Positions 31,018 to 61,507 of a DNA stretch of 64,000 nt are shown in pieces; position 1 is the first letter of the stretch; every line of letters starts with the position of its first letter. The DNA is from Sedimenticola hydrogenitrophicus (GTDB taxonomy: Bacteria > Pseudomonadota > Gammaproteobacteria > Chromatiales > Chromatiaceae). The notes beneath the pieces are model-generated. The model was given only the letters and a program-made list of their open reading frames with translations. It was not told the DNA's origin and ran no database searches. Position numbers and translations under genes: made by a program. The DNA is taken from the NCBI RefSeq assembly GCF_029017505.1, contig NZ_JAQGEI010000021.1, forward strand, positions 1 to 64,000, read 5' to 3'.

Positions 31018-31093
31018 GGGGCCATAGCTCAGCTGGGAGAGCGCTACACTGGCAGTGTCGAGGTCGGCGGTTCGATCCCGCCTGGCTCCACCA
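31018..31093 (+). tRNA. tRNA-Ala (GGC anticodon), copy 1, with 28-42 mismatch
   Basis: 76 nt with encoded CCA. Loop CTGGCAG gives anticodon GGC, reading GCC. It differs from copy 2 (43938-44013) at one base: position 42 is C here and A there. T28 therefore faces C42, leaving a mismatch in the second pair of the anticodon stem. All other stems are paired. It heads a two-tRNA transcript with tRNA-Glu. Confidence 0.93.
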
Positions 31094-31163
31094 AACAACG
31101 CGGGGGCAGGGAGCCCATCGGACCGGCAGCCAGCAGCCCGGTCATGTAATGGAGACGATCCAA

Positions 31164-31239
31164 GTCCCCTTCGTCTAGAGGCCTAGGACACCGCCCTTTC
31201 ACGGCGGTAACAGGGGTTCGAACCCCCTAGGGGACGCCA
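31164..31239 (+). tRNA. tRNA-Glu (TTC anticodon), copy 1
   Basis: 76 nt with encoded CCA. Anticodon stem CCGCC/GGCGG, loop CTTTCAC, anticodon TTC. It appears identical to copy 2 at 44081-44156. It is 70 bp after tRNA-Ala and followed at once by a terminator. Confidence 0.95.
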
Positions 31240-31242
31240 TGT

Positions 31243-31278
31243 AAAAAAGCCCGATCAGGTGACTGATCGGGCTTTTTT
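31243..31278 (+). terminator. Terminator of tRNA operon 1
   Basis: Stem GCCCGATCA/TGATCGGGC around GGTGAC, flanked by A6 and T6, so it can work in both directions. Very like the terminator at 44160-44196. Confidence 0.92.
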
Positions 31279-31320
31279 GTCTATCAGGGAGGGACTTATG
31301 CCGCGGAGCCGGGAGCGGCG
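31279..31320. repeat. Terminator-linked dispersed repeat, copy
   Basis: Starts directly after the terminator: GTCTATCAGGGAGGGACTTA then TGCCGCGGAGCCGGGAGCGG. The same series of words occurs on the minus strand at 54197-54244, and in part at 18487-18509 and 44365-44395. Confidence 0.65.
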
Positions 31321-31481
31321 TTCTCAATCCGCTGCCGTGATTAAGGTTCCCCTGAAGAGGCCTCGACACCCACCACAGCGCATGTGGGTGAGTATCTCGA
31401 GTCCTGAATATCCTATGGAATGATTCGTTTCAAGACCGTACTCTTGAGTCTGGAGATTTCATTGGGGTGAGGCGGAGCAGT

Positions 31482-33245
31482 ATGCAGGCGGTCAGATCAT
31501 TGAAACAGGGCGAGCGTGTGCGTGCGCGTATCCTGCTGCCATTCACCCTGGTGTTGCTGTTCGTGATCGGGGCCTTTGTCCTTGCCACCTACGTGGTGGG
31601 GGGGCGTGAACAGGAGGCGGAGCTGGCCAGTCGGGTCAGGGACATGGAGAAGTTGTTCGCTCGCCAGATTGAGAACGACGCGTCGATGATGCAGGCGGCG
31701 TTGATCGCCATTTCGCGTAATGAGGCTATTCGGCGTTCCTTCATGCGTCGCGACCGGGAAGCGCTGCTGCAGCAAACCTGGCCACTGTTCGACACCTTGC
31801 GAGAGAATAATAACGTCACCCATTTCTATATCACCGAACCGGACCGGGTCAATTTTCTGCGTGTCCATCAACCGGACCAGTCTGGTGACACCATCGACCG
31901 GGCGACCACGCGACAGGCCGCCGCGCAACGCACCGTGGTCCGGGGGGTCGAGCTCGGACCCCTGGGAACGCTGACCCTGCGTGTGGTATTACCCTGGTAC
32001 CGCGGCGATCAGTTGATCGGCTATCTGGAACTGGGTGAGGAGATAGAAAATATCACCGACGAAATCCGCCGTATTCTGGGGGTCGGGCTGCTGGCGATGG
32101 TTGACGGCGAGCTGCTGGGACCGCCCCTGCGCGACCCGTCGAAGAGACTCAAGGGACACTTCAATATTCCCGAGCGGATCGGGAGCTCGGTGATAGTGGC
32201 AAAGTCGATCGAGCGGATACCCGAGGCGCTGCTGCGGCGATTACGTGAGGGCACTGCCAAGGGCCGCGAGACCCTGCGGATTGAGGAGGCGGACAAGGAG
32301 TTCCATGTCACCCTGCTTCCATTCTCCGACATCTCCCAGCAGGTGGTGGGCCGACTGGCGGTGGTCCATGATGTCACCGGCGTCCAGGACAACCTCTATC
32401 AGGCACTGGGGATGGTGACGCTACTCTCGGTGGCGGCCAGTGGGGTGGTGTTTATAATCTTCTATATCATCCTGGGACGGGTCGAACGGGATGCCCTGCG
32501 CCAGCGGGAGGTAGAGTTGAAACTGACCCGGATGAACACCGAACACCAGAAGGTGGTACAGCTGGAAAAGTTGTCCGCCATGGGGTTGATGGTCGGGGAG
32601 ATCGCCCATCAGCTGAACAATCCCCTGGTGGGGGTGGTCAACATGGCCCAGCTGGCCGAGCGCAAGCTTGATGCCCCGGATCAGCTCAAGGGGTTGCTTG
32701 GGGAAATCGGCCGGGCCGGCAAGGATTGCCACTCGTTTGTGCGGCGCATGCTGGATTTTACCAAGATCTCCTGTTTTGAACTCAAGGAGAGTGACCTGAA
32801 CAACCTGGTGAACGAGACCCTGTTATTGAGTCAGCGCAGCATTGGCCGTCAGGTGAGGCTGGAGGCCGAGTTGCCGGAACATCCGACAATCCTCACCGTG
32901 GATCCGGTATTGATCCGCCATGCCCTGTTCAACCTGCTGGCCAATGCGATTCAGGCAAGCCCGGCCGGCAGCGTGGTGAAGATGGGTCTGTTTCCTCACA
33001 CGCGGGGAGGACTGCCGGGCTGGTGTCTTGCTGTCCGTGATCAGGGTTCGGGGATCGACCAGGCGTTGTTTGAGAAGATATTCACGCCGTTTTTTACCAC
33101 CCGGCCTGATGGCACGGGGTTGGGTTTACCGGTAGTGCAGCATGTAGCCATATTGCATGAGGGTGAGGTGTGGGCCGAAAATGCCGAGGAGGGTGGGGCG
33201 GTGTTCCACCTCTGGCTACCGCAAACAGGTGGAGTTACGGAATGA
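31482..33245 (+). CDS. Membrane sensor histidine kinase of a sigma-54 two-component system
   Basis: 587 residues. A first membrane segment is at about 18-40 and a second at about 309-331. They enclose a periplasmic Cache-like sensor domain with HFYITEPDRVNFLRVHQPDQ and a GD motif, as in dCache ligand sensors. A HAMP-like linker is not evident; a coiled coil leads to the H-box GEIAHQLNNPL with phospho-acceptor His376. The ATP-binding domain has an NAIQAS N-box, DQGSGID and GTGLGL. The ATG at 31482 has a GGAG site; GTG at 31467 is an alternative. The end overlaps the response regulator gene (ATGA). The ligand is unknown. Confidence 0.9.
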   Translation: MQAVRSLKQGERVRARILLPFTLVLLFVIGAFVLATYVVGGREQEAELASRVRDMEKLFARQIENDASMMQAALIAISRNEAIRRSFMRRDREALLQQTWPLFDTLRENNNVTHFYITEPDRVNFLRVHQPDQSGDTIDRATTRQAAAQRTVVRGVELGPLGTLTLRVVLPWYRGDQLIGYLELGEEIENITDEIRRILGVGLLAMVDGELLGPPLRDPSKRLKGHFNIPERIGSSVIVAKSIERIPEALLRRLREGTAKGRETLRIEEADKEFHVTLLPFSDISQQVVGRLAVVHDVTGVQDNLYQALGMVTLLSVAASGVVFIIFYIILGRVERDALRQREVELKLTRMNTEHQKVVQLEKLSAMGLMVGEIAHQLNNPLVGVVNMAQLAERKLDAPDQLKGLLGEIGRAGKDCHSFVRRMLDFTKISCFELKESDLNNLVNETLLLSQRSIGRQVRLEAELPEHPTILTVDPVLIRHALFNLLANAIQASPAGSVVKMGLFPHTRGGLPGWCLAVRDQGSGIDQALFEKIFTPFFTTRPDGTGLGLPVVQHVAILHEGEVWAENAEEGGAVFHLWLPQTGGVTE

Positions 33246-34627
33246 GCACAAATGATCTGTTGAAGCATTCGAGGATCCTGATTGTCGATGACGATCATTA
33301 TGTACGCACCCTGCTCCAGGAGCTGTTTTCCGATGGACCCGTCGAGGTCACGGTGGCGGAGGATGCGGCCACGGCACGGGGGTATTTCGAACATGAAGAT
33401 TTCAACCTGATCATCATGGATCAGCGCCTGCCCGACGGTAATGGACTCGACCTGCTGCGTGAAATACGCCAGATCCAACCGCAGCAGATGGCCATCCTGA
33501 TCACCGGTTATGCCGATGTGCGTGACGCGTTGCGTGCCGTACGCGAGGGACTGTTCGACTATCTGACCAAGCCGTTTGAGAACCTGGAAGAGCTGGAGGC
33601 GGTGATTGCCAAGGCACTGGAACTGGATCGCGCCTATCGGGAGATCAACGATCTCAAGCAGACGCTGGATAGCCGCTCGTCACAGCCCATCTATATCGGG
33701 CAATCGCCGTCGACTATTGCCTTGCAGAAACAGATCAGCCAAGTGGCCGCACTGGATGTCACCGTGTTGATCGAGGGTGACAGCGGTACCGGCAAGGAGT
33801 TGGTGGCGAAAAGCCTGCACGCCCAGAGCCCAAGGAACGAAAGCGGCCGCTTCATGGAGATAAACTGCGGTGCGCTCTCCGAACAGCTGCTGGAAAGTAC
33901 CCTGTTCGGTTATGAAAAGGGGGCCTTCACCGGTGCGGTGAAGATGACCCGGGGCTACCTGGAGGAGGCCGACGGCGGCACCCTGTTCCTCGATGAGATC
34001 GCCGATATGAGCACCAAGCTGCAGAGCAGCCTGTTGCGGGTTCTGCAGGAGCACACCTTTTCACGCATCGGCAGTACCGAGCTGCGTTCCAGCGACTTCC
34101 GCCTGATCTGTGCCACCAACAAGCGGCTGAGCGACGAGGTGCGCGCCGGTCGCTTCAGGGAAGATCTGTTCTACCGCATCAACGTGGTCTCCCTGGAACC
34201 GATGCCGTTGCGGGAGCGGCGTGAGGACATCGTGCCCTTGACGGTCCACTTTCTCGAACATTTCAATGCGAAGTTCGCCAAGCGGGCCGGTCCCTTGACC
34301 CCCGAGGCCCTCTACGTACTGGAGAACTTCTCCTGGCCCGGCAATGTGCGGCAGCTGCAGCACGCCATTGAGCGGGTGGTGGCGCTGCACGGCGACGGCC
34401 CGATCAGCGCCGCCGACCTTGCCTGCCTGGCAGAGGATATCGCCGATGCGGGGGAGGGGACGGAAGACGCGCTGCTCTCCTATCAGAAGGCCCGGGAGAA
34501 CTTTGAGCGGGACTACCTGGAGCGACTGATGGAGCAGGCCAAAGGCAATGTCTCCGAGGCGGCCCGGCTGAGCGGCATACCACGGCAGAACCTCTATGTG
34601 CGGATGAAACGCTGGGGAGAGTCGTAA
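33242..34627 (+). CDS. NtrC-family sigma-54-dependent response regulator
   Basis: 461 residues. The N-terminal receiver domain has an acidic VDDD pocket and phospho-acceptor Asp60 (IIMDQRLPDG). The AAA+ domain follows with GDSGTGKE (Walker A), the GAFTGA loop that touches sigma-54, and GGTLFLDEI (Walker B). A C-terminal Fis-type helix-turn-helix (GNVSEAARLSGIPRQNLYVRMK) ends it. All parts needed to activate a -24/-12 promoter are intact, and one lies 317 bp downstream before the cytochrome operon. Cotranscribed with the kinase. Confidence 0.93.
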   Translation: MSTNDLLKHSRILIVDDDHYVRTLLQELFSDGPVEVTVAEDAATARGYFEHEDFNLIIMDQRLPDGNGLDLLREIRQIQPQQMAILITGYADVRDALRAVREGLFDYLTKPFENLEELEAVIAKALELDRAYREINDLKQTLDSRSSQPIYIGQSPSTIALQKQISQVAALDVTVLIEGDSGTGKELVAKSLHAQSPRNESGRFMEINCGALSEQLLESTLFGYEKGAFTGAVKMTRGYLEEADGGTLFLDEIADMSTKLQSSLLRVLQEHTFSRIGSTELRSSDFRLICATNKRLSDEVRAGRFREDLFYRINVVSLEPMPLRERREDIVPLTVHFLEHFNAKFAKRAGPLTPEALYVLENFSWPGNVRQLQHAIERVVALHGDGPISAADLACLAEDIADAGEGTEDALLSYQKARENFERDYLERLMEQAKGNVSEAARLSGIPRQNLYVRMKRWGES

Positions 34628-34639
34628 AAACCAGACAGT

Positions 34640-34657
34640 TGTCGTATTTTTATGACA
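34640..34657. promoter_or_regulatory. Candidate upstream activator site
   Basis: TGTCGTATTTTTATGACA is an inverted repeat (TGTCrTA-N4-TAyGACA, one mismatch) in the 382-bp gap before the cytochrome operon, about 300 bp upstream of the sigma-54 promoter. Further TGTCG half-sites lie at 34752 and 34852. A plausible binding site for the adjacent response regulator; no gene lies in the gap. Confidence 0.45.
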
Positions 34658-34943
34658 CTTTCGCAGATCCCGGCGACCGGCAACGCCAATCCTTGACCGA
34701 ACCGCTGATCCCGATGCTGGCCATCAGACCCCCGCTGACATCCCGGAAGTGTGTCGAAAAATGCATCTATCGCGTTGAAAAATAAGTTAAATATCTCGTA
34801 ATAGGGGGAATTCCCATTTTTAGGATAAGTTTTCCTGGAGTTAAGAAAATCTGTCGCTATCCCAACCGATCGTACCCCTGGTCGAACCTTTCCGTGATCT
34901 CAATCAATTGAATCAACAGGCTTGGTGCCTATAACCGTATATA

Positions 34944-34959
34944 TGGCACGGGTACTGCA
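34944..34959 (+). promoter_or_regulatory. Sigma-54 (-24/-12) promoter
   Basis: TGGCACGGGTACTGCA matches the RpoN consensus TGGCACG-N4-TTGCA except for C in place of the first T. The invariant GG and GC are exactly 10 bp apart. The predicted transcript start is about 40 bp before the cytochrome ATG at 35010. It is the only such promoter I noticed in the window. Confidence 0.85.
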
Positions 34960-35009
34960 CCTGTCCTGGTGTATCGTCATTCAAGTTCGTTAATCGCTGG
35001 AGGGGAATC

Positions 35010-36311
35010 ATGAAAAAAACCGCAATTGCAATGGCCGTCTCGCTGCTGACCGCCACCCCGGTATTCGCCATGGAACCGGCCGATGTAGACTGGAGCAAGG
35101 TTCCGGCCAATGAGCTGGTCCTGTTCTATCCCGGCCAGTCCACCTATCAATGGCTGCGTTCAAAAGATCACAAACGTGCCTTCATGCAGACCCAGGATGG
35201 TCAGGCCTGCGTCGCTTGCCATTTGAATGAAGAGGAGGTATTGGGAAATACACTGGTCAAGGAGGGACGTCTGGAGCCGACCCCTGTCGAGGGCAAGAAC
35301 GGTTCGATCAAGCTGGGTTTCCAGGTGGCCTACGACAACGACAACGCCTATTTCCGCTTCCAGTGGAAGACCCTTAACGACTACGCCGGCACCGCCCACC
35401 CCTATTGGCGCTATGACGGCAAGGCGTGGAAGGCCTTTGGTGGCCCGAAGCTTAATGAGAATGTGCAGAGCGGCGAGCAACCGGGCATCTATGAAGACCG
35501 CATGTCGATCATTATCGATGATGGCAAGGTGCCGATGTTCAAGGAGCAGGGCTGCTGGCTGACCTGCCACAATGGCGAGCGCGACAACCCTGATATCCCG
35601 GAAACCGCCGACGTCACGGAAAACCCGCTGTTCAAGCACCTGAAGAAAAAAGACGTACGCAAGTATCTACCCTCCAGCCGTACCGACGAGGACGCCTCCT
35701 GGGATATGGGCAAGACTCCGGAAGAGATCGCCCAGTTGAAGGCCGATGGTGTATTCCTCGATCTGATGCAGTGGCGCGGTCACCGCTCCAACCCGGTGGG
35801 CATGGCGGATGATTTCAATGTCATGGAGTATCGCAACGGCGACGCCGGCAAGAACCCCTTCGGCAAGAACTGGGACAAGGAGGCCAAGCAGCCGAAGTTC
35901 ATGTACGACCCCGCCAAGTTCGGCAGCAAGTCGGTCAAGTTCGAGGATATCCGCAACAAGCCGACGACGCTGATCCGTGAACAGAATGCCGTGCCGTTCG
36001 ATCCGAATGCCGGCTGGCAGGAGGGGGATCTGATTCCCGAGTATGTGGTCAGCCGCGAGGATGCCAAGGGTTCGGCCGCCGACAACAGCCAGGCGCACGG
36101 TGAATGGAAGGATGGTGTCTGGACCGTGGTCTGGGCGCGCAAACTCAACCTGGCCAATCCGGATGACAAGGCATTGAGCGACGGCAACAGCTACAACTTC
36201 AGCTTTGCCACGCACGACGACAACATCACCACGCGCGGTCACTTCGTCTCCTTCCCGGTGACGGTGGGCTTTGGTGCCGACGCAACCATCAAGGCGACCA
36301 AGCTCAATTGA
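35010..36311 (+). CDS. Periplasmic cytochrome with ethylbenzene-dehydrogenase-type (EB_dh) haem domain
   Basis: 433 residues with a signal peptide (cleavage after VFA, residue 20). A CVACH haem-c motif is at residues 67-71. A second motif, Cys182-WLT-Cys186-His187, has three residues between the cysteines. The rest matches the EB_dh haem-binding domain: YFRFQW, RMSIIIDD, MQWRGHRSNPVGMADD, VWTVVWARKL and a C-terminal NYNFSFATHDD-like region. EB_dh domains are best known as haem-b subunits of type II DMSO-reductase enzymes (ethylbenzene, selenate, chlorate). Here it leads an NrfD-type operon instead. GGAGGGG ribosome site. First gene after the sigma-54 promoter. Confidence 0.82.
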   Translation: MKKTAIAMAVSLLTATPVFAMEPADVDWSKVPANELVLFYPGQSTYQWLRSKDHKRAFMQTQDGQACVACHLNEEEVLGNTLVKEGRLEPTPVEGKNGSIKLGFQVAYDNDNAYFRFQWKTLNDYAGTAHPYWRYDGKAWKAFGGPKLNENVQSGEQPGIYEDRMSIIIDDGKVPMFKEQGCWLTCHNGERDNPDIPETADVTENPLFKHLKKKDVRKYLPSSRTDEDASWDMGKTPEEIAQLKADGVFLDLMQWRGHRSNPVGMADDFNVMEYRNGDAGKNPFGKNWDKEAKQPKFMYDPAKFGSKSVKFEDIRNKPTTLIREQNAVPFDPNAGWQEGDLIPEYVVSREDAKGSAADNSQAHGEWKDGVWTVVWARKLNLANPDDKALSDGNSYNFSFATHDDNITTRGHFVSFPVTVGFGADATIKATKLN

Positions 36312-36396
36312 TCGGTAACAGCTGCCCGGATCATATCGTCCTATGCCGATATGATCCGGGGTCATCTCCGAGTAACGTCACAGAGTGGAGGGGCTG

Positions 36397-37014
36397 GTGA
36401 ACATCTCCCTTTTAAAGAAGCATCCGCTGGTTTCCGCCGCCGGCATCCTGGTACTGGTGGTGATACTGGCCTGGGTAATTGCCTACGAACCGGTGACACG
36501 CAATCTGATTGCCAGTGATGGCTTGTGCAACTACTGCCATCTACCCTGGGAGTTCAATCCCGACGAGCGCTTGACCGCGACCCGGCCGCATCCGGCCACC
36601 TCGAAGGAGCAGGAGCAGGAGCAACAGGCCCAGGCCCGTTGCGTGGAGTGTCACCTGCCCGAAGGGTGGTGGAATACCACCTACGCCTATACCCATTTTC
36701 TCAGTATCACCGACCTGTTTGGCCACTTTCGTGACCGCGACGGGGAACGGGCGGGAGACTGGATACCGGCACGCGCGGCCACCGCCTACCGGGTTCGCGA
36801 TCGCCTGTTCGAGTATGACAGCAACACCTGTCGGGGCTGCCATATCGAGGACGAAATCAAACCCAAACGGGCACGTGGCGTGAATGCACACAAGCTGGCC
36901 AAGGACGAGGAGAAGACCTGTATTGAGTGCCACACCAGCCTGGTGCATCGCTATGTAGAACCGCGCAAGGATGCATTCAAGAAGGCGGACGCCGCAGATG
37001 CGCCCAAGGGTTGA
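36397..37014 (+). CDS. NapC/NirT-family tetrahaem c-type cytochrome (quinol dehydrogenase)
   Basis: 205 residues with one N-terminal membrane anchor (about 10-30) and four CxxCH motifs: CNYCH (44-48), CVECH (82-86), CRGCH (145-149), CIECH (175-179). This is the NapC/NirT pattern of an enzyme that takes electrons from membrane quinol and passes them to periplasmic partners. GTG at 36397 is preferred because GGAGGGG lies six bases upstream; GTG at 36385 is an alternative. It is the only NapC-like gene in the window and is not part of the nap operon. Confidence 0.88.
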   Translation: MNISLLKKHPLVSAAGILVLVVILAWVIAYEPVTRNLIASDGLCNYCHLPWEFNPDERLTATRPHPATSKEQEQEQQAQARCVECHLPEGWWNTTYAYTHFLSITDLFGHFRDRDGERAGDWIPARAATAYRVRDRLFEYDSNTCRGCHIEDEIKPKRARGVNAHKLAKDEEKTCIECHTSLVHRYVEPRKDAFKKADAADAPKG

Positions 37015-37037
37015 ACCAGAGTCAGTGGGAGTTCGTT

Positions 37038-37805
37038 ATGAATGATCAAGAAAAACCGGACACCAGCCGCAGGGGGTTCGTCCAGCTGCTGGCCGGCGGT
37101 GCGGTGGCTGCGACCGCGGCCTCTGCGTTAGGCAGCCTGGCCCCGGCCGGCGGCGCGGAATCAACCGCAAAGCAATCCAGGATACAGTACGGAATGCTGA
37201 TTGATACCCGGCGCTGCATTGGTTGCCACAGCTGTTCGGTGGCCTGCAAGGCGGAGTTTGATGTGCCGCTGGGCGTCAACAAATCCTGGGTTGAGTATAC
37301 CGAAAAGGGTACCTTCCCCAATGTTAATCGCCACTTCCTGCCACGCCTGTGCAATCACTGCAGCGAACCACAATGTGTGGCCGTCTGTCCTACCGGGGCC
37401 ACTTACAAGCGCCCGCAGGATGGCATTGTGGTGGTCGACAGCGGGCTCTGTATCGGCTGCAAATACTGCATCCAGGCCTGCCCCTACGATGCGCGCTTCC
37501 TCAATCCGGTGACCAATTTTGCCGACAAGTGCGACTTCTGTATCCATCGCGTATCCAAGGGGCTGCTGCCCTCCTGTGTCAACTCCTGTATCGGTGGTGC
37601 ACGGATCTTCGGTGATGTGAATGACCCCGAGAGTGAGATCTCCCGACAGATCGCCGCCAATGCGGTGACCGTGTTACGGCCAGGCAAGGGGACCGAACCC
37701 AATGTCTACTATATCGAGGCGGATATTACCGAGGAGGCCGAGAACAGCGATGGCAGTTACCGGGTACGGGTCTCCACTCACCGATCAATCAAGGAGAGGC
37801 GATAG
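37038..37805 (+). CDS. Tat-exported four-cluster ferredoxin subunit (PsrB/TtrB type)
   Basis: 255 residues. The N-terminal DTSRRGFVQLL and a hydrophobic Ala-rich stretch form a Tat signal. Four 4Fe-4S motifs follow: CIGCHSCSVAC, CNHCSEPQCVAVCP, CIGCKYCIQACP and CDFC with a later CVNSC. This is the electron-transfer subunit of membrane-bound molybdoenzymes such as PsrB, TtrB and SrdB. It lies before the NrfD and catalytic genes, the B-C-A order of ttrBCA and srdBCA. GGGAG ribosome site; an in-frame upstream extension into the tetrahaem gene is rejected. Confidence 0.9.
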   Translation: MNDQEKPDTSRRGFVQLLAGGAVAATAASALGSLAPAGGAESTAKQSRIQYGMLIDTRRCIGCHSCSVACKAEFDVPLGVNKSWVEYTEKGTFPNVNRHFLPRLCNHCSEPQCVAVCPTGATYKRPQDGIVVVDSGLCIGCKYCIQACPYDARFLNPVTNFADKCDFCIHRVSKGLLPSCVNSCIGGARIFGDVNDPESEISRQIAANAVTVLRPGKGTEPNVYYIEADITEEAENSDGSYRVRVSTHRSIKERR

Positions 37806-37807
37806 TC

Positions 37808-38740
37808 ATGCATGAACTCAACTGGGGTTTGCCGGTCATCTTATACCTGTTTCTCGCCGGTCTGGGTGCCGGTGCCGTCACTGTCAGTGGCTCGGTGTTG
37901 CTGCGCAAGGGGGGCTTCCATGACAGCCGCATGGACATTGCCCGCTATGGCGCACTGATCGGGCCGATACCGGTGATGCTGGGCACCTTCCTGATTGTCT
38001 TTGAACTGGGGCAGCCGTTTCGTGCCCTGAACCTGTTCAAGATGCTCAACCTCTCGCCGATGTCAATCGGCACCTGGGCGCTGGCGCTGTTTATCATCCT
38101 GAGCGGACTTTATGCCATCTGCTTCATTCCACGCCAGGCCACCTGGCCATGGCTCGGCAAGGCCCGCCGTGTGCTGGCGTGGCTCTGCGTGCCCTTGGGT
38201 ATCAGTGTGGCGATCTATACCGGGGTGTTGCTCGGGGCCATGCCGGCGCGGCCGTTCTGGAATTCACCTATCCTGGCCGGACTGTTCGTATTGTCGGCGC
38301 TCTCTACCGGAACTGCGGCGATCATGTTGATGGTGGCGCTGTTCGGGGAAAAGAGTGCCGAACATCGGGAAGGCCGTGAAAATGATCAGTATCTGCTGGT
38401 TTCATCGGACGCCCTCCTGTTGGGTGGGGAGATGTTGGTGATCTTCCTGTTCCTGATGTTTGCCCACCTGACCATCGGTGATGTACGCCATGCGGTTGAG
38501 GTGATCCTGCCCGGCGGCTCCCTGGCGTCGCTCTTTTGGTGGGGCGTGGTACTGATTGGGATCCTGTTCCCCTTTGTTATGGAGTTGTTTCAGGTGGTAC
38601 CGAAACTGCTTTATGGACGGACCTTCAGGAGCAGTCTGGTGCTTGAGGTGGCTGTCGCCTTATCGGTCCTGGCGGGTGGATTCGCCCTGCGCTACATCAT
38701 TGTGGTCGCGGGTCAAGTCACCGGTCCGACCACCCTATAG
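37808..38740 (+). CDS. NrfD/PsrC-type membrane subunit
   Basis: 310 residues with about eight to nine hydrophobic segments, beginning HELNWGLPVILYLFLAGLGAG, typical of NrfD-family quinone-reactive membrane anchors. It starts two bases after the stop of the ferredoxin gene. With the ferredoxin and molybdenum subunits it would form a three-subunit complex: quinone site in the membrane, Fe-S chain and periplasmic active site. The presence of both an NrfD protein and a NapC-type cytochrome gives the operon two possible quinone connections. Confidence 0.9.
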   Translation: MHELNWGLPVILYLFLAGLGAGAVTVSGSVLLRKGGFHDSRMDIARYGALIGPIPVMLGTFLIVFELGQPFRALNLFKMLNLSPMSIGTWALALFIILSGLYAICFIPRQATWPWLGKARRVLAWLCVPLGISVAIYTGVLLGAMPARPFWNSPILAGLFVLSALSTGTAAIMLMVALFGEKSAEHREGRENDQYLLVSSDALLLGGEMLVIFLFLMFAHLTIGDVRHAVEVILPGGSLASLFWWGVVLIGILFPFVMELFQVVPKLLYGRTFRSSLVLEVAVALSVLAGGFALRYIIVVAGQVTGPTTL

Positions 38741-38758
38741 GTTTGATTGGAGGCTGAT

Positions 38759-41293
38759 ATGATTAACCGCAGAAAATTCCTGCTCTCCGCTACTGCGGCC
38801 ATCTCGGCGCCCCTGCTGCCGGCGGCGGCTGAGTCGGCGGAAAAAAGCCCTCCCATGACCGAAGGGGGGGTGGAATACTCCACCTTCAGCGGTGCCGAAC
38901 TGGAGGCAGTGCCCGGAATTTGTGGGGAGTGTCCCAGTCATTGCGCCATTATCGGCTATAGTGACGAGGGCCAACTGGTCAAGGTTGAGGGGAACCCCAG
39001 CTCCATCCGCAACCTGGGCCGGATCTGTTCCAAGGGCCAGGCCGGCATGACCAAGGTGTACGACCCTGATCGGCTGTTGCAGCCGATGCATCGAACCGGT
39101 AAGCGTGGTGAGGGGAAGTGGCAGACGATCTCTTGGGAGGCCGCAATCGAGCAGATCCGCGAGCGCCTGGCGCGTCTGCGTGATCAGGGAAAACCGGAAC
39201 GCTTCCTGTTCCAGCACGGCTGGATATCCAGCAGTGCCGAAAAGCTGATCGGCGGTATCTTCATGCCGGCCTTCGGCAGTGCCTCAATCCTGGATCAGCG
39301 ATGCAACAGCCTTAGCGCCAGGCGCGTCGCCCAGCAACTGACCTGGGGTGGGGCCCTCGATAGCCCGGATCTGGAACGTGCGCGTCTGGTGGTGAATTTT
39401 GGCAGCAATCTGCTGGAGGCCGATACCAATATGGTCGCACTGGCCAGGCGCTTGACCCTGTCGCAGGTTGATCGGCGCATGAAGATGGTTACCTTCGATG
39501 TGCGGTTGTCGAATACGGCGGCAAAATCGGATCAGTGGGTGCCGGTCAAACCGGGTACCGACCTGGCGGTGATACTGGCGATGTGTCATCAACTGGTCGC
39601 CGATGAGGGCTATCGGGGGGCGGGTGAGCGTTTCCTGGAGTTCTGCCAGGTGAGTGAGCAGGCCACCGCCACGGTGGAGGAGAAGATTGCACATCTGCGT
39701 GCGCATCTCGAGTCCTACACCCCCGAGTGGGCACAACAGGTCAGTGGTGTGGATGCGGAGTTGATTCGCCGGTTAAGCGCCGAGATTGTGGATTCCGGAC
39801 CGACCTGTTTCCTCAGTTCGCGCGGCGCCACTGCCCGTTACAATGGCGTGGAGACCGAGCGGGCACTGATGTTGCTGGCCGCCTTGAGCGGCAATATCAA
39901 TAACCCGGGGGGACGCTCCGAGGCGGTCCTGCCGGAGTGGCAGTTTCCGCAAGGCCCCGAAGACAGGCAACCGGCGCGGCGGCTGGGCTTCCTCGGCAAC
40001 GAGGAACGGGGTGCCAGGCTGCAGATGTTCGATGCCGGGGATAACGTGCTGAAACGGATCAAGGAGGTAGGGGAGCGGCCGGAACTCTACCTTTGGTATC
40101 ATCACAATCCGCTCTTCGCCAATGCCGATACCGGGGCGATGCGCAAGATTATGAAAGATGAGTCGCTGCTGCCCTTCACGGTCGCGGTAAGCTCCGTATA
40201 CGATGAGTCGGCCGCCCTGGCCGACCTGATCCTGCCGGACACCACACCGCTCGAGTGCTTCGGGATTGAACTGGGGATTTCGCCCAATCGGATCGCTGAA
40301 TACAGTCTGCGTCAGCCGATGGTCGCGCCACAGGGTGAGGCCAGGGATTTTGTCGATGTGTGCTGTGAACTGGGGGAAAAGCTGGGATTGAATATCGGTT
40401 TCAGCAGCCATGAGGCGTTTGTCGAGGCGGCCTGCAAGGAGACGCCCGTGGTCAAGCGCAAGGCGCGGGGATTTCGCGGTTTGACCAAGAGCGGCGTCTG
40501 GCATGACAAGAAACTCCAGCCGCAATTTAATGCTCACCAGGTGGAGGTGCCGGGTGATCTGCTGCAAGGTGAAACGGTGCTGTTCGATGAGGTGACCGGG
40601 GTTTACTGGGATTGGCGTCTGGCCGGCGTTACGGATCCCGCAGCGGCGGAACGCCAGGGTTATAGCGGCACCGCGGGTGCCGGCAGGGGGTATCTCGGAC
40701 AACGGATCGGTGACAAGGTCTATCGCGGTTTTGCCCCCGGCCAACTGGACAAGAGCGGGTATCTGGAACTCTACTCGCCAATCCTGGCGGCCGCGGGGCT
40801 GCCCGGACTCCCAAGCTATCAGGCGATTCCCTCGCACCAGCAGCTCGAACCGGGGCAGTTCATGCTCAGTACCTTCAAGGTCAATGTGCAGACAAGCAGC
40901 GCTACGGGCAATGCCGCCTGGCTGAGCGAGATTCATCACGACAGCGAGGTGTGGATCAATCCGCTGAGTGCGGCCGAACAGGGGGTGACAGAGGGCTCCA
41001 GGATCAGCCTGAGATCGGCGGTTGGTGAAGTGGAAGCGGTTGCCCGCCTGACCCAGGGGATTATGCCCGGTGCGATTGCCATTTCGATCCACTCGGGGCG
41101 CTGGGAAGGCGGACGCTATGCGAGCGACCAGCGGACGCCGCAAGCCATTGATGACCGGCATCATGATGCCTACAAGTGGTGGCAGGGCGTGGGGGTGCAT
41201 CCCAATGATCTGATCGCTGACAGCACCGAGCCGGTGGCGGGGCAACAGTGCTGGATGGATACGGTGGTCAGTCTCTCGGCAAAGTCCGGGTAA
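38759..41293 (+). CDS. Tat-exported molybdopterin oxidoreductase, catalytic subunit (Psr/Ttr/Srd-like, substrate unknown)
   Basis: 844 residues of the DMSO-reductase superfamily. MINRRKFLLSATAA is a Tat signal. A 4Fe-4S site is formed by Cys55, Cys58, Cys62 (CGECPSHC) and Cys90. Cys182, in LDQRCNSLSAR, occupies the place of the molybdenum ligand. The C-terminal dinucleotide-binding domain has the SATGNAAWLSEIH and VWINPLSAAEQG stretches. TGGAGG ribosome site before ATG 38759. Subunit order resembles ttrBCA and srdBCA, but the N-terminal cluster sequence fits no characterised reductase I can name, and it is shorter than TtrA. Selenate, tetrathionate, polysulfide, arsenate or another substrate are all possible. 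Confidence 0.88.
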   Translation: MINRRKFLLSATAAISAPLLPAAAESAEKSPPMTEGGVEYSTFSGAELEAVPGICGECPSHCAIIGYSDEGQLVKVEGNPSSIRNLGRICSKGQAGMTKVYDPDRLLQPMHRTGKRGEGKWQTISWEAAIEQIRERLARLRDQGKPERFLFQHGWISSSAEKLIGGIFMPAFGSASILDQRCNSLSARRVAQQLTWGGALDSPDLERARLVVNFGSNLLEADTNMVALARRLTLSQVDRRMKMVTFDVRLSNTAAKSDQWVPVKPGTDLAVILAMCHQLVADEGYRGAGERFLEFCQVSEQATATVEEKIAHLRAHLESYTPEWAQQVSGVDAELIRRLSAEIVDSGPTCFLSSRGATARYNGVETERALMLLAALSGNINNPGGRSEAVLPEWQFPQGPEDRQPARRLGFLGNEERGARLQMFDAGDNVLKRIKEVGERPELYLWYHHNPLFANADTGAMRKIMKDESLLPFTVAVSSVYDESAALADLILPDTTPLECFGIELGISPNRIAEYSLRQPMVAPQGEARDFVDVCCELGEKLGLNIGFSSHEAFVEAACKETPVVKRKARGFRGLTKSGVWHDKKLQPQFNAHQVEVPGDLLQGETVLFDEVTGVYWDWRLAGVTDPAAAERQGYSGTAGAGRGYLGQRIGDKVYRGFAPGQLDKSGYLELYSPILAAAGLPGLPSYQAIPSHQQLEPGQFMLSTFKVNVQTSSATGNAAWLSEIHHDSEVWINPLSAAEQGVTEGSRISLRSAVGEVEAVARLTQGIMPGAIAISIHSGRWEGGRYASDQRTPQAIDDRHHDAYKWWQGVGVHPNDLIADSTEPVAGQQCWMDTVVSLSAKSG

Positions 41294-41348
41294 CGACTGG
41301 CGGGCGGTGAGTCGGGAGTGAATTTCACCCATGCGGAGTCATGTGAAG

Positions 41349-41375
41349 ACCCGGTTGTCAGGGTGACAACCGGGT
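41349..41375. terminator. Terminator after the molybdoenzyme operon
   Basis: ACCCGGTTGTCA-GGG-TGACAACCGGGT, a perfect 12-bp stem followed by TTGTTT. It lies between the operon and the convergent GGDEF-EAL gene. Confidence 0.85.
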
Positions 41376-41420
41376 TTGTTTCCAGCTGTTGCCCCGTGCG
41401 CCGCCGCGCTTTGAAAATGG

Positions 41421-43667
41421 CTATCTCCTGATGATTCCGTCATGGGTGGTGGCGAATGCCGCCGCGTCGGCGTCGCTCAGGGGCGGGCTGAAGTAGTAGC
41501 CCTGCATGTAGTCGCAGGCAAGCGCGGAGAGGTAATCCGACTGGGTCTTGTTCTCCACCCCTTCGGCGATTACCTCAAGTCCCAGATTGTGCGCCAGGCC
41601 GATAGTGGCGGTGCAGATGGCCGCGTCATTGGGATCGGTCTCAATATCCATGACAAAGGCACGATCCAGCTTCAGCCGGTCGATCGGCAACAGCTTGAGG
41701 TAGGCGAGGGAGGAGTAGCCGGTACCGAAATCGTCAATCGAGAGCTTCACCCCCAGCGCCTTCAACTCCAGCAGTATCTCCACCGTGGCGACCGGATTCT
41801 CCATAGCCACGCTCTCGGTGATCTCCAGTTCCAATAGGCGCGGGTGGATGCCGGTCTGGGTCAGGATATCATCCACCTGATCAATGAGGGTCTCGTCCTT
41901 CAGTTGCCGCGCGGAGAGGTTGACCGAAACCGAGAGCTCCTGCATGCACTCGATTGTGTGCCAGGCGGCCAGGGTCATGCAGGCGGTTCTAAGGACCCAT
42001 TGGCCGATCGGCACGATCAGTCCGGTCTCCTCGGCCAGGGGAATGAACTTCATGGGCGCCACCAGCTCACCATCCGCTTTCTGCCAGCGCACCAGCGCCT
42101 CGAAGCCGATGATCCGGCCATTGCTTGCACGGATTTGCGGCTGGTAGTGGAGGACCAACTCTTTTCTCTCCAGCGCCAGGCGCAACTCACCCTCCAGCCG
42201 CAGCCGCGCTTCCGCCGATTGGGTCATCCGGGCATCAAAGAAACGGAAACAGTTGCGTCCGGCCGACTTCGCGGAATACATGGCGATGTCGGCGTTCTTC
42301 ATCAGGGTGACCCGCTCTCTGCCGTCATCGGGAAAGATGCTGATGCCCAGTGAGGCGGAAGGCACCACCTGATGCGGTCCGAGCTGCAGCGGCAACGACA
42401 GGGCCTGCAGTATTTCGCTGGCCAGGATGGCGGCCGTGGTACTCTCATCCAGATCGGTGATGGCAATGACAAACTCATCCCCCCCGGGCCGACCGACGAT
42501 GTCGTTGCCGCGCACGCATTGCAAAAGACGCTGGGCGATCTCGATCAGGAACTCATCACCCACGGCATGTCCGAGGGAGTCGTTGATCGCCTTGAAGTTG
42601 TCCATGTCGATAAAGATCAGGGCCAGCTGTTTGTGATGGCGCTGCATATCGGCCAGCGATTGATCCAGCCGCGCCTCCAGGGTGTAACGGTTGGCCAGGC
42701 CGGTGAGGGCATCTTCATGGGCCAGTTTCTCGATCGCCTCGGCTGCCCGTTTATGTTCCGTAACGTCACTGTAGATGGTGACGAAGCCACCGCCGGGGAT
42801 AGGGGCACCGCGGATCTCGATGGCGGTGCCGTCCGGTCGGGTGCGTTCCATCCGATGATGCGTGGGGTTCTGGGCCAGGTGGAGCATCTCAGCCACCTTG
42901 CTCTCCACGTCCACATCGCCATACTCACCGCGCTCCGCATTACTGCGTATAACCTCGCTGAAGTGGGGATGTTTGCTGGCAAAAGCCGGTGAAACATCGA
43001 GCATCTGCAATACTTCATCGTTATACAGGATCATGCGCAGGTCGGGTCCGAATACGGTGATACCGCCGGGCATGTTGTCCACCAGGGTCTGTAGCAGGGC
43101 ATTTTTGCTCTGCATCGCCTCTTCGGCACGCTTGCGGTCGGTTATGTCGGTATAGCTGGTGACAAAACCCACTACCTTGCCGTTCAGCAGCATCGGCTTG
43201 CCTTCCACCAGGTGCGTTCTGCCATTTGGCCGGGTGCGCTCAAAACGGTGCGGCAGGAACTTGAGTGCCAGGTCCCGCCGTGCCGCCACCAGCTCTTTCG
43301 GGTCGCCCGGTCCATACTCTCCCCGCTTGGCGGGGTACATGATCAGATCTTCGAACGGCACGCCGTCATAGAGGCTTTCCGGGGGCAGTTCCAGTACATC
43401 CGCCAGCACCGCATTCCAGCAGCGCAGGCGCAGTTGATCATCGAAAACCGAGATGCCCTGAGGCATATGATCGACAACGGATTGCAGGTAGTCGACCTGG
43501 TGCCGGGCGTTGGCCGTCCGGGCTTGTGGAATGGCCGCCGGGACGCTGTCGGCCGCGCTTGTTGCGGCGTTGTCCCGCAGCCCTTGAATATGTCGCTGCA
43601 ACTGGCGCAGGCGCCACAGGGCGGCAGCGAGGGCGACCAGTAAAACGAGCATGATTAATGTATTCAT
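41421..43667 (-). CDS. PAS-PAS-GGDEF-EAL cyclic-di-GMP protein
   Basis: 748 residues. An N-terminal membrane segment (about 1-18) is followed by two PAS domains, each with a VDHMPQGISVF or VDNMPGGITVF start. The GGDEF domain has an intact GGDEF (RPGGDEF) and the EAL domain has an intact EAL (GFEALVRW), ELEITES and DDFGTGYSSL. Both synthesis and breakdown of cyclic-di-GMP are therefore possible. It converges with the molybdoenzyme operon inside the tRNA-flanked segment, so a sensory link is possible but unproven. Confidence 0.92.
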   Translation of the reverse strand: MNTLIMLVLLVALAAALWRLRQLQRHIQGLRDNAATSAADSVPAAIPQARTANARHQVDYLQSVVDHMPQGISVFDDQLRLRCWNAVLADVLELPPESLYDGVPFEDLIMYPAKRGEYGPGDPKELVAARRDLALKFLPHRFERTRPNGRTHLVEGKPMLLNGKVVGFVTSYTDITDRKRAEEAMQSKNALLQTLVDNMPGGITVFGPDLRMILYNDEVLQMLDVSPAFASKHPHFSEVIRSNAERGEYGDVDVESKVAEMLHLAQNPTHHRMERTRPDGTAIEIRGAPIPGGGFVTIYSDVTEHKRAAEAIEKLAHEDALTGLANRYTLEARLDQSLADMQRHHKQLALIFIDMDNFKAINDSLGHAVGDEFLIEIAQRLLQCVRGNDIVGRPGGDEFVIAITDLDESTTAAILASEILQALSLPLQLGPHQVVPSASLGISIFPDDGRERVTLMKNADIAMYSAKSAGRNCFRFFDARMTQSAEARLRLEGELRLALERKELVLHYQPQIRASNGRIIGFEALVRWQKADGELVAPMKFIPLAEETGLIVPIGQWVLRTACMTLAAWHTIECMQELSVSVNLSARQLKDETLIDQVDDILTQTGIHPRLLELEITESVAMENPVATVEILLELKALGVKLSIDDFGTGYSSLAYLKLLPIDRLKLDRAFVMDIETDPNDAAICTATIGLAHNLGLEVIAEGVENKTQSDYLSALACDYMQGYYFSPPLSDADAAAFATTHDGIIRR

Positions 43668-43894
43668 TCGCCGTCACAAGCTGTCTCTGGTTATAAAGAG
43701 TCGCGCCATCCGCACACCATCGCGGGGTCACCCGCGAGCCGGTCGCTTCATTGCTCAAGTGTAGCGATAGTTTCACAAGAGGTAAAATCGTCCCCCAGCG
43801 GTGTCCCTTGTCGCTGTGGATCCGGGGCGTTTACCGGTGCGATCCGGGGTGTCCGGCAGGCGACGACGGAACTCCAGGATTTGCCATCAGTAAC

Positions 43895-43923
43895 TAGACA
43901 AATCCTGGCGGATACCTTACCAT
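43895..43923 (+). promoter_or_regulatory. Promoter of the second tRNA-Ala/tRNA-Glu operon
   Basis: -35 TAGACA (43895-43900), 17-bp spacer, -10 TACCAT (43918-43923), then a GCGCGCC discriminator. Weaker hexamers than copy 1 but the same spacing and discriminator. Confidence 0.65.
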
Positions 43924-43937
43924 GCGCGCCTTGTTAC

Positions 43938-44013
43938 GGGGCCATAGCTCAGCTGGGAGAGCGCTACACTGGCAGTGTAGAGGTCGGCGGTTCGATCCCG
44001 CCTGGCTCCACCA
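43938..44013 (+). tRNA. tRNA-Ala (GGC anticodon), copy 2
   Basis: 76 nt with encoded CCA. Anticodon stem CTACA/TGTAG fully paired, loop CTGGCAG. Differs from copy 1 only at position 42 (A here). Confidence 0.96.
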
Positions 44014-44080
44014 AACATTACAGGGCAGGAGGCCTGAGTGACTGTGACACCAGCACAGTCATGCAATGGAGATAGTCCAG

Positions 44081-44156
44081 GTCCCCTTCGTCTAGAGGCC
44101 TAGGACACCGCCCTTTCACGGCGGTAACAGGGGTTCGAACCCCCTAGGGGACGCCA
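44081..44156 (+). tRNA. tRNA-Glu (TTC anticodon), copy 2
   Basis: 76 nt with encoded CCA, apparently identical to copy 1. It follows tRNA-Ala by 67 bp. The spacer resembles that of copy 1 mainly in its last part (GTCATG-AATGGAGA-TCCA). Confidence 0.96.
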
Positions 44157-44433: not shown

Positions 44434-45348
44434 TCACTGCATGCCGGCCACGCCCCGCTTATGGTACTCCCGCGGTGAGCAACCGAAAAAGTCACGGAAG
44501 CGTCGACTGAAGTGGCTGGGGTTGGTGAAACCCAGATCGTAGCAGACCCGGGTGACCGGCTCACCGCGCTTGAGTCTCCGGGATGCCAGCTTCAGGCGAA
44601 GCTGTTGCTGCAGTTCACTGGGAGAGCAGCCAGTTTGGGTCTTGAACTCGGCATACAACCGGCTGCGGCTCATACAGGCAACGCGCGAGAGTTGGTCGAT
44701 ATCGAGCGGTTCCGCAAGATGCTTTTCCAGGTGGTTCAGGGCCGCCGTGATGCCACTTGAATCCGGCGCATCACGGCAGTAGCTGAGCAGTAACTCGCGC
44801 TCCTGATGACGCAGCATCCGTATGATCAGCTCGGAGACGCCGAGATCCACCAGCACGTCACGGTCCGGGTGATTTTCGGTAAAACAGGAGACCAGGCGCG
44901 CCAACAGGTGCTGGGTGGCCGTGGTGTGGTGGGTGTGCAGTATGGTGCTGCTGTGTTGCCATCCCTCCAGCCCGGACTCGATCGGATTGAGATCGCTCAG
45001 GCGTTCGGAGATTTTTGCCACCTTCTCCTTGGAGATTTCTATCGTCAGGCAGGTGGTGGGGGATTGGGACGTGGCATCGGGAAAATCGATCTCGACATGT
45101 TCGCCGGGCGCCATCACGAAGGACTCATGGGGCAGGAAGATCTGCTCTCCCGGGTGATGGGCATCGTGCATGATCTTGCGACCCTGGATCATGCCGCAGT
45201 AGAGCAGCTGATCGGCATCCAGTCCCACGCGAGAGGCGGCCTGGTAAGTGTCATAGATGCTCAGCTCCGCCTCCGGACCCGCGAAACTGACGCGGTTTTC
45301 CACCAGCCTTTGTGGTTTTCTGAGTGCACTCAACTCCGCAGAACGCAT
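44434..45348 (-). CDS. AraC-family transcriptional regulator
   Basis: 304 residues. The N-terminal part is a cupin-like ligand region (HHPGEQIFLPHESFVMAPGEHVEIDFPDA). Two helix-turn-helix motifs at the C-terminus are typical of AraC (SRVACMSRSRLYAEFKTQTG and VCYDLGFTNPSHFSRRFRDF). ATG 45348 was chosen for its GAGGAG ribosome site; an upstream extension of about 80 codons is not credible. It is divergent from an aldehyde dehydrogenase gene, its likely target. Confidence 0.88.
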   Translation of the reverse strand: MRSAELSALRKPQRLVENRVSFAGPEAELSIYDTYQAASRVGLDADQLLYCGMIQGRKIMHDAHHPGEQIFLPHESFVMAPGEHVEIDFPDATSQSPTTCLTIEISKEKVAKISERLSDLNPIESGLEGWQHSSTILHTHHTTATQHLLARLVSCFTENHPDRDVLVDLGVSELIIRMLRHQERELLLSYCRDAPDSSGITAALNHLEKHLAEPLDIDQLSRVACMSRSRLYAEFKTQTGCSPSELQQQLRLKLASRRLKRGEPVTRVCYDLGFTNPSHFSRRFRDFFGCSPREYHKRGVAGMQ

Positions 45349-45548
45349 CTTCGGCTCCTCGCTCCTATCTGTTTTAAGGAATTTAATTAAACTTAAATTC
45401 AGAGGTCTTACGCCCCTTTTGTACCCGACAGCATGCGTTGGGATTGGATGCTGAGTCAAGTGATGTGGAATTTCAGTCAAGTTTTCCCTTTGGTGTGGAG
45501 TTAGCCTAAGCGTCCGAACTATTACTCGAAAACACCCTAGGAGGAAGT

Positions 45549-47069
45549 ATGATATTTGCACAACCTGGAAAAGAGGGCGCCGTTGTTTCATTTAAACCGC
45601 GGTATGAGAATTTTATTGGCGGGGCCTGGGTGCCACCGGTCAAAGGCGACTATTTCGATAACCTTACCCCCGTTACGGGCGAGAAATTCTGTGAGATTCC
45701 CCGTTCCGGCGTCGAGGATATTGAACTGGCGCTGGATGCCGCCCATGCCGCCAAGGCGGCCTGGGGCAAGACCTCGGTGACCGAACGCTCCAACCTGCTG
45801 CTGAAGATCGCCGACCGTATCGAGCAGAATCTTGAGATGTTGGCCGTTGCCGAGACCTGGGACAATGGCAAGGCGGTACGTGAAACCATGGCGGCTGATG
45901 TTCCTCTGTCCGCTGATCATTTCCGCTATTTTGCCGGTTGTATCCGTGCCCAGGAGGGGGGGATAAGTGAGATCGACAATGGCACGGTAGCCTATCATTT
46001 CCATGAGCCGCTGGGTGTGGTGGGGCAGATCATTCCCTGGAACTTCCCGCTGCTGATGGCAGCCTGGAAGGTCGCACCGGCACTGGCGGCAGGCAACTGC
46101 ATTGTCCTCAAACCGGCCGAGCAGACACCGGTATCGATCCTGAAACTGATCGAAGTGATCGAGGACCTGCTGCCTGCGGGCGTTCTGAACATTGTTAACG
46201 GTTACGGTCGCGAAGCGGGCCAGGCGCTGGCTAACAGCACCCGCATCGCCAAGCTCGCCTTCACGGGTTCGACACCGGTTGGTACACACCTCCTGAAATG
46301 CGCCGCCGAAAATCTCATCCCCTCCACGGTGGAACTGGGTGGCAAGTCCCCTAATATCTTCTTCAATGATGTGCTGGATCAGGAAGATGAATTCGTCAGC
46401 AAATGTATCGAGGGTGCGGTGTTGGCCTTCTTCAACCAGGGTGAGGTCTGCACCTGTCCCTCCCGTCTGATGATTCAGGAAGACATCTACGAGGAATTCA
46501 TCGCCAAGGTGATTGAGCGCTCCAAGCAAATCAAACGCGGCAATCCACTGGACAGCGACACCATGGTGGGTGCCCAGGCTTCCCAGCAGCAGTACGACAA
46601 GATCCTCAGCTATATGGAGATCGGCAAGAGCGAGGGTGCCGAGGTGCTGATCGGTGGCGGTATTGAGAATGTTGAAGAGGGCTTGGGTGATGGGTATTAC
46701 ATCCAGCCGACCCTGCTCAAGGGCTCCAACAAGATGCGCGTATTCCAGGAAGAGATCTTTGGTCCGGTAGTCTCGGTCACTACCTTCAAGGATGAGGCCG
46801 AGGCGCTGGCTATCGCCAACGACACTCAGTATGGCCTGGGTGCCGGCGTCTGGACGCGCGACATGAATACCTCCTATCGCATGGGTCGGGGTATAGAGGC
46901 CGGTCGTGTCTGGACCAACTGCTACCACCTCTATCCGGCTCATGCCGCCTTTGGTGGTTACAAGAAGTCCGGCATCGGCCGCGAGAATCACAAGATGATG
47001 TTGGATCATTATCAACAGACCAAAAACCTGCTGGTCAGCTACGATATCAACCCGCTGGGCTTCTTTTAG
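45549..47069 (+). CDS. NAD-dependent aldehyde dehydrogenase (ExaC/AldB type)
   Basis: 506 residues. NAD site GFTGSTPVG-type sequence ([10 protein letters not shown]), general base in ELGGKSPN and catalytic Cys in NQGEVCTC, as in the ExaC/AldB acetaldehyde dehydrogenase group. AGGAGGAAGT ribosome site. The divergent AraC gene suggests induction by an alcohol or aldehyde. First gene of a run of four co-directional genes, though a large stem-loop separates it from the next. Confidence 0.93.
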
Positions 47070-57988: not shown

Positions 57989-58060
57989 CGATAGTCTCGG
58001 GGGGCAGGTCTATAAAGCCCCTTAAATTAAGTGGGTAATTATTATCTCAAGCTTCAGCTT

Positions 58061-58579: not shown

Positions 58580-58602
58580 ATCTTAAGGAGCGAATAACCA
58601 AA

Positions 58603-61418: not shown

Positions 61419-61507
61419 TGGGTCGTTGCAGGTTCGGCCGGCGACAACCGGTTGAACCGACAAACTGGAAGAGTGGAATACCGGATCGATAACAGAGCAG
61501 TAACGAG

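Follow-up and report, generated by a model that had tools for sequence, protein, structure and literature searches.

What kind of respiratory complex is formed when a molybdoenzyme of the FeS-NrfD-Mo type is encoded together with an EB_dh-domain cytochrome, a NapC-type cytochrome and a two-component system? This question is raised by a locus in a 64,000-nucleotide stretch of DNA from Sedimenticola hydrogenitrophicus (hereafter the window; genome G000), which a sequence-only reading had interpreted as a sigma-54-controlled operon joining two modules not normally found together. Pfam matches, haem motifs and the promoter sequence identified all the parts that this reading had named at 31482-41293. 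These are a sensor kinase, an NtrC-type regulator, a -24/-12 promoter and, downstream of it, genes for an EB_dh dihaem cytochrome, a NapC tetrahaem cytochrome, a Tat FeS subunit, NrfD and a Tat molybdoenzyme, in that order, with a strong hairpin closing the unit (Table 1). The operon is likely one predicted transcript.

Table 1. Features of the locus and its borders, in window coordinates, with genes given from their likely start codons (L013 is the corresponding locus in the same-genus genome G001).
Feature	Position	Strand	Support
tRNA-Ala and tRNA-Glu pair, left island border	31018..31239	+	ARAGORN
Sensor histidine kinase with periplasmic dCache_3	31482..33245	+	PF14827 3.4e-14, PF00512, PF02518; L013 94% identical
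NtrC-type response regulator (receiver, sigma-54 AAA+, Fis HTH)	33242..34627	+	PF00158 2e-66
-24/-12 (sigma-54) promoter TGGCACGGGTACTGCA	34944-34959	+	11/12 consensus letters; identical in L013
EB_dh-domain dihaem c-type cytochrome	35010..36311	+	PF09459 7e-52; one CxxCH, one CxxxCH
NapC/NirT-type tetrahaem cytochrome (quinol dehydrogenase type)	36397..37014	+	PF03264 1.3e-20; four CxxCH
Tat-exported FeS subunit	37038..37805	+	Fer4_11 PF13247 2.2e-30; TSRRGF motif at start
NrfD-type membrane quinone subunit	37808..38740	+	PF03916 1.3e-43
Tat-exported molybdoenzyme catalytic subunit, displaced-Cys clade	38759..41293	+	PF00384 5.3e-35
Codons Cys182-Asn183-Ser184 (new Cys and replaced Mo-ligand position)	39302..39310	+	alignment
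Terminator-like hairpin and U-rich tail	41347-41377	+	51-nt fold -25.1 kcal/mol, z -4.36
PAS-GGDEF-EAL gene	41421..43667	-	Pfam; L013 copy at 76%
Second tRNA-Ala and tRNA-Glu pair, right island border	43938..44156	+	ARAGORN

Gene content, promoter and genomic setting

Profile matches placed the Mo, FeS and membrane quinone subunits of an NrfD-type iron-sulfur molybdoenzyme (CISM) within one gene cluster, and the FeS-NrfD-Mo order was as first described. NrfD and NapC are two different quinone-reactive membrane proteins, in agreement with the earlier proposal of two quinone entry points. The N-terminus of the catalytic subunit has a PF04879 match, and its [4Fe-4S] cysteines (C55, C58, C62 and C90) and twin-arginine (R4, R5) were invariant in four aligned rows. 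The haem motifs of the EB_dh cytochrome, C67xxCH71 and C182xxxCH187, were invariant across ten. The likely start of the NapC gene is a GTG at 36397, with 36385 also possible, and the gap between the EB_dh and NapC genes is 73-85 nt. The same seven-gene locus was found in G001 (L013), with proteins 93-99% identical to those of the window.

Sigma-54 control, also proposed in the sequence-only reading, is supported by the features expected of a sigma-54 two-component operon, an NtrC-type regulator gene and a -24/-12 site. The element TGGCACGGGTACTGCA sits 50 nt before the EB_dh start and is the sole one-mismatch -24/-12 site in the window; when the 382-nt leader was shuffled 5000 times at the mononucleotide level, six of the shuffles had an 11/12 site on the promoter strand. 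Since a scan of the window allowing two mismatches found eight sites against a shuffle mean of 12.45, which is not above chance, the case for the promoter leans on this single site, its position, its identity in L013 and the sites found downstream of two related regulators, both of them matching the regulator of the window at 63% identity. These are a 12/12 site in L027 and an 11/12 site in L024 that departs in the -12 GC. L170 had a 10/12 site, and no convincing -24/-12 site was found in L142, L140, L114, L168 or L169 (best 8/12). A sigma-70-type scan did no better than shuffles (four found, mean 3.8), and the hairpin at the end of the operon was not listed by a simple terminator scan.

The operon is part of an island between the two tRNA pairs. 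The same left pair forms the edge of an insert in L013 and L188, and was also found at the empty sites L186 and L187. In G001 the same cargo, consisting of the operon and the GGDEF-EAL gene, is flanked by the same tRNA pairs; the GGDEF-EAL gene, on the opposite strand of the same island, probably stands outside the operon. At the empty sites the pairs were 258 bases apart in G003 (L186) and 165 in G004 (L187), and G002 (L188, L189) had an insert of ~23 kb between the pairs in which none of the window's genes was matched. These empty, differently filled and island-filled sites among Sedimenticola genomes identify window positions 31239-43938 as an insertion hot spot, with the island present in two sister Sedimenticola species. 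Fourfold-site differences between G000 and G001 were 0.04-0.23 for eight island genes, and 0.09 and 0.11 on the left flank and 0.04 on the right (44434-45591), two further flank rows being left out as overlapping or opposite-strand frames. That the island passed recently from one of these species to the other is unsupported, as island and flank had diverged to a similar degree, which is compatible with one insertion preceding the species split.

A displaced cysteine in the molybdenum-ligand loop

The most unusual feature of the locus, missed by the earlier reading, is the changed Mo-ligand site of the catalytic subunit, and this is a stronger finding than the gene set. At position 184, that of the Mo ligand, Cys was present in 40 of 40 near homologues and in none of the eight members of the clade that contains the window enzyme; the window and L013 have Ser at this position and the other six have Gly. 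Cys182, in turn, was found in all eight clade members and in none of the 40. The 40 near homologues all have His180, Arg155 and Lys157, whereas in the clade position 180 is Gln or Asn, position 188 is Arg, and Trp155 and Ser157 occur in seven of seven readable members (L127 is masked at ~148-176, and counts for 153-157 are therefore out of seven). Cys is also present at position 184 in the ArrA and PsrA segments. An alignment slip as the source of the shifted Cys was ruled out, since Gly173 to Trp196 spans 24 residues without an indel in 47 of 47 readable rows (40/40 and 7/7), and the constant length of this segment indicates that the Cys has moved and is not misaligned.

The remainder of the enzyme has changed far less. 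Of 255 columns conserved at 90% or more in the 40, 150 were retained in all eight clade members and 14 in none, and six of those 14 fall in 153-157 and 180-188, the latter being the ligand loop. Because the 40 and the eight were split by the motif itself, the counts of 40/40 and 8/8 describe the sets, and independent support comes from full-length trees uniting the eight. The clade was monophyletic with an SH-aLRT of 100 and a sister support of 95, and reference PsrA/PhsA and ArrA/ArxA sequences fell outside it in a tree in which the PsrA and PhsA references were on long branches, the PsrA sequence was partial and SoeA, TtrA and SrdA had no rows. A plasmid search supplied references for PhsA, a DmsA-type enzyme and an ArxA-like enzyme, the last of which we take to be such from its gene order.

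The 40-row set excluded L118 (a near-copy of L117), L083 and L170 (partial), L039 (the same record as L119), the L119 fragment, L026's second Mo gene (which corresponds to the second one in L140) and L195-L197; these rows had the ordinary Cys wherever readable. L195-L197 are extra loci from the phylum-level search and were without EB_dh or NapC. More distant homologues were kept as a separate set.

Enzymes with the displaced Cys are rare. They were identified in two of 369 genomes of the class (G000 and G364; ten genomes matched at E 1e-150), three of 53 in the order of G364, two of 385 in the class of G450 (G450 and G504; five matched), and one of 398 of the phylum, the window's own genome (four matched at E 1e-180). 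Within the genus, the catalytic subunit was found in G000 and G001 only, and G003, which has an empty island site, had no close relative of it (best E 6.4e-108). In searches of open-licence PMC papers, no title or abstract opening described the clade or its gene set. For S. selenatireducens, the consulted part of the genome paper names enzymes resembling Nar, Nap, Clr, Ser and Pcr (PMC5052931), and the word NapC does not occur in the consulted part of a review of NrfD proteins (PMC8076601).

The Mo ligand is the residue used to sort the DMSO-reductase families. In the parts consulted of two surveys, a Cys ligand is reported throughout the sulfur/arsenic/selenium branch (PMC7331816, PMC10100899), and the authors of one of the two checked each sequence for its family's expected ligand. 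A clade such as the one described here would tend to be set aside at that step.

The EB_dh-NapC module in other genomes

The sequence-only reading had regarded the operon as a one-off joining of two modules, which our comparison of the 6 kb (or available contig) before the FeS gene on the same strand contradicts. EB_dh and NapC genes preceded FeS-NrfD-Mo in seven of seven assessable loci of the clade and its sister group, from two proteobacterial classes, and neither gene was found in the 14 other FeS-NrfD-Mo loci for which 2 kb or more of preceding sequence was available. Within the clade, EB_dh was present in all four loci with enough upstream DNA (the window, L013, L114 and L142), and NapC in these and in L127 and L130 (~1 kb); L025 and L128, which lack upstream DNA, fall outside the clade count. 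In the sister group both genes were present in 3/3 assessable loci (L026, L140 and L170; L108 is without upstream DNA). The EB_dh gene of L026 reads as two frames, and the Mo gene of L170 is cut by the contig end and is 86% identical to that of L108. The upstream count omitted L017, L116, L108, L025 and L128, for which the available DNA was too short, and L141, which has FeS and Mo genes with no NrfD between them and neither EB_dh nor NapC upstream. The count also excluded the FeS-Mo loci that encode ten- to eleven-haem cytochromes, in which there was no EB_dh match. In these related operons a cytochrome of ~500 residues is encoded upstream (L016, L031-L034, L036-L038, L040, L044, L046, L047, L080, L120, L121, L144 and L145), some with eight-haem cytochromes nearby; we found no name for this operon type.

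The gene set is thus a conserved association of the clade and its sister group, and it is more modular than the first reading held. In L114, the EB_dh and NapC genes are separated by genes for a decahaem MtrA-like protein and MtrB/PioB, and the Mo gene is followed by another NapC gene. Downstream in L142 are genes for a six-haem cytochrome, a NapC and a TorD-family chaperone; there is no TorD gene in the window operon. The window's own genome has 18 PF00384 and seven EB_dh matches, and one of its other EB_dh loci, L024 (G000:C15), is a kinase-regulator-EB_dh-NapC unit with no molybdoenzyme and its own -24/-12-like site. EB_dh was also found with NapC alone (L169), and with none of kinase, regulator, NapC or MtrA/MtrB (L167). 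In L168 (G115) an EB_dh gene whose product is 60% identical to that of the window lies directly before MtrA-/MtrB-like genes, with no molybdoenzyme in the stretch. Relatives of the window EB_dh at E 1e-30 were present in 10 of 369 genomes of the class. Based on these contexts, EB_dh-NapC is a movable module for electron transfer.

The assignment of EB_dh to the type II DMSO-reductase enzymes did not survive this comparison. The protein of the window is a c-type dihaem cytochrome, L024 and other EB_dh contexts are without a molybdoenzyme, and the catalytic subunit scored 129.5 against a type II alpha-subunit cut-off of 984.75, with Ser or Gly, not Asp, at position 184 in the clade; EB_dh as a type II marker was therefore ruled out. 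The predicted EB_dh model is weak (pLDDT 53.8), and its core resembles NxrC and EbdC (7b04_C, 2ivf_C). No MtrB/PioB match was found in the window's own genome, and among nine Sedimenticola genomes eight had none and the ninth a weak one. An outer-membrane route is therefore not general, and the EB_dh of the window probably serves a periplasmic partner.

Two further molybdoenzyme loci were observed. On a plasmid of Azoarcus sp. KH32C (L146) there is a related FeS-NrfD-Mo-TorD operon with a PhnD-type binding protein, a kinase and a sigma-54 regulator, near arsA/arsB. The window itself has a second molybdoenzyme gene at 58857-61418 (853 aa), followed by apparent FeS and membrane subunit genes, in a region (58031-63288) that presumably resembles a nap operon.

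Proposed function and comparison with known systems

Loss of the usual ligand raises the question of whether the catalytic subunit is a live enzyme. As a control, two QrcB sequences above the QrcB cut-off were scored at 56 widely shared columns; QrcB is listed without a Mo cofactor in the consulted part of a published table (PMC8076601). The controls kept 42 and 43 of the 56, with D247 and D268 changed to Glu and R518 lost. The five complete, unmasked clade members kept 50-53, having lost 155, 180, 184 and up to three more, and the incomplete rows kept 49 of 53 readable (L127), 44/56 (L128) and 34/56 (L130), gaps being scored as losses. The direction of this difference suggests a live enzyme, but the difference is modest, and as the Mo-less QrcB still keeps 42-43 columns, retention separates live from dead poorly.

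A second ligand-less clade (L065, L084, L087 and L022), in which the Mo-ligand Cys was lost independently, kept 48-50 of the 56 columns and has also lost R355 and R518 (R355N and R518T). Its genes lie beside NapC-type genes, a five-haem one right after the Mo gene in L065, L084 and L087 and a weak NapC-like match in L022. A third group, with Gly at position 184, was observed in Nitrospinae and Nitrospirae MAGs (L055 and L070). Ligand loss has thus occurred repeatedly in this part of the superfamily. Such repetition makes a loss of Mo plausible; yet among these groups only the displaced-Cys clade has Cys182 in every member.

The main rival to a live molybdoenzyme is that the Mo-type subunit is catalytically dead and Mo-free, and that the complex is a Qrc- or alternative complex III-like quinone:cytochrome c oxidoreductase with EB_dh/NapC (or MtrAB). 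The replacement of the Mo ligand and its neighbouring residues, the independent ligand loss beside NapC-type genes in the second clade, and the richness of the operons in haem proteins are all consistent with such a scaffold. However, the subunit scored 175.5 bits in QrcB against a cut-off of 440, and the clade keeps D247 and D268, which are Glu in both QrcB controls, as well as R518 and R355, which the second ligand-less clade has lost. The moved Cys (8/8) and Trp155 (7/7 readable) are held as though selected, and L142 encodes a TorD-family chaperone. We therefore consider a dead scaffold unlikely.

It is also conceivable, but distinctly improbable in our judgment, that the enzyme is an ordinary PsrA/PhsA/TtrA/SrdA/SoeA/ArrA-type oxidoreductase of S, Se or As in which the ligand site is a local quirk. 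The FeS-NrfD-Mo order is in keeping with this, as are the best NCBIfam match of the Mo subunit (PhsA, 319 bits), the scores of the FeS subunit (best for TtrB, 241.6 with a cut-off of 416, and above the cut-off for DsrO, 216.9 against 200) and the presence of ArrA and PsrA among the closest folds of the predicted Mo subunit. Against it, the Mo subunit missed the cut-offs for PhsA (694), ArrA (159.3 against 1600) and TtrA (116.6 against 1750), the last of which leaves a ttr-like identity unsupported. The PhsA/PsrA and ArrA/ArxA references fall outside the clade in the tree described above (without SoeA, TtrA and SrdA), and all of the families in question have Cys in the consulted part of Table 1 of PMC10100899. 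Least probable, in our view, are two adjacent but functionally separate modules, with NapC-EB_dh serving other periplasmic reductases and sharing the promoter only. The EB_dh-NapC pairs of L024 and L169, which have no molybdoenzyme, the EB_dh with MtrA/MtrB in L168, and the related regulators that precede either half alone (L024 and L027) argue for this separation, but the association in 7/7 assessable loci from two classes, and its absence from 14/14 other FeS-NrfD-Mo loci, argues against it.

Of the first interpretation, the regulation, the gene order, the two quinone proteins and a catalytic subunit outside the characterised clades tested (by tree and NCBIfam cut-offs) are retained, and the type II link, the one-off joining and the likeness to ttr are not. 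The reading we prefer, to which we give about an even chance, is of an inducible periplasmic molybdoenzyme of the NrfD-type iron-sulfur kind that is linked to quinone, has a non-standard predicted Mo site and belongs to a small clade. From the parts present, the kinase would sense a periplasmic signal, which, as the sequence-only reading proposed, may be the enzyme's own substrate, and the regulator would open the sigma-54 promoter, and the signal motifs suggest that the FeS and Mo subunits are exported folded via Tat. Two pyranopterin cofactors would still bind molybdenum, and its protein ligand may be the moved Cys, the Ser or none; in AioA and IdrA there is no protein ligand on Mo. Electrons would pass between the Mo site and quinone via the FeS protein and NrfD, a route established for Psr and Arr. 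A further path, from or to quinol and involving periplasmic partners (outer-membrane ones in one relative), would be provided by NapC and EB_dh; in it NapC may draw on or feed quinol and EB_dh, from its pairing with NapC or MtrA/MtrB, is the candidate next carrier. Substrate, quinone and cytochrome c would thus be joined in one inducible chain. We lean slightly towards an enzyme that oxidises a reduced donor of the sulfur or metalloid type and whose electrons exit via NapC and EB_dh, since NapC would be superfluous in a pure reductase supplied by NrfD.

The catalytic subunit may perform chemistry not known for its relatives. Somewhat short of an even chance, we place a more specific proposal: that it represents a new kind of active site in the S/As/Se branch, in which Mo (or W) either is held by a Cys that has shifted by two residues or has no protein ligand, within a complex with NapC and EB_dh that links substrate, quinone and cytochrome in a chain (extracellular in the MtrAB relative), acting on a substrate that no known member uses. 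A clade in which the ligand loop has been rebuilt and most of the enzyme retained would offer a direct test of the role of the protein ligand, and the recurrent EB_dh-NapC module provides a way into the wiring that connects periplasmic enzymes, quinones and outer-membrane conduits.

Compared with known systems, the clade differs from PsrABC, PhsABC and SrrA in the changed Cys ligand and aligned His, its separate branch in the tree and the addition of EB_dh and NapC, and from ArrAB and ArxAB in an ArrA score far below the cut-off and in the position of ArrA/ArxA outside the clade. QrcABCD and alternative complex III are like the window set in having a MopB-type subunit with FeS, NrfD and multihaem cytochrome partners and a lost Mo ligand, but QrcB changes columns that the clade keeps, and the clade scores below the QrcB cut-off. 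The type II enzymes EbdABC and NXR share the EB_dh fold with the window cytochrome, as far as its weak model indicates, and differ in the score of the catalytic subunit, in the c-type haem motifs of the window EB_dh and in the presence of NrfD in the window set. Porin-cytochrome conduits of the MtrAB/PioAB type are absent from the window and present inside the operon of its relative L114, an arrangement to which we take DmsEF of Shewanella to be a parallel.
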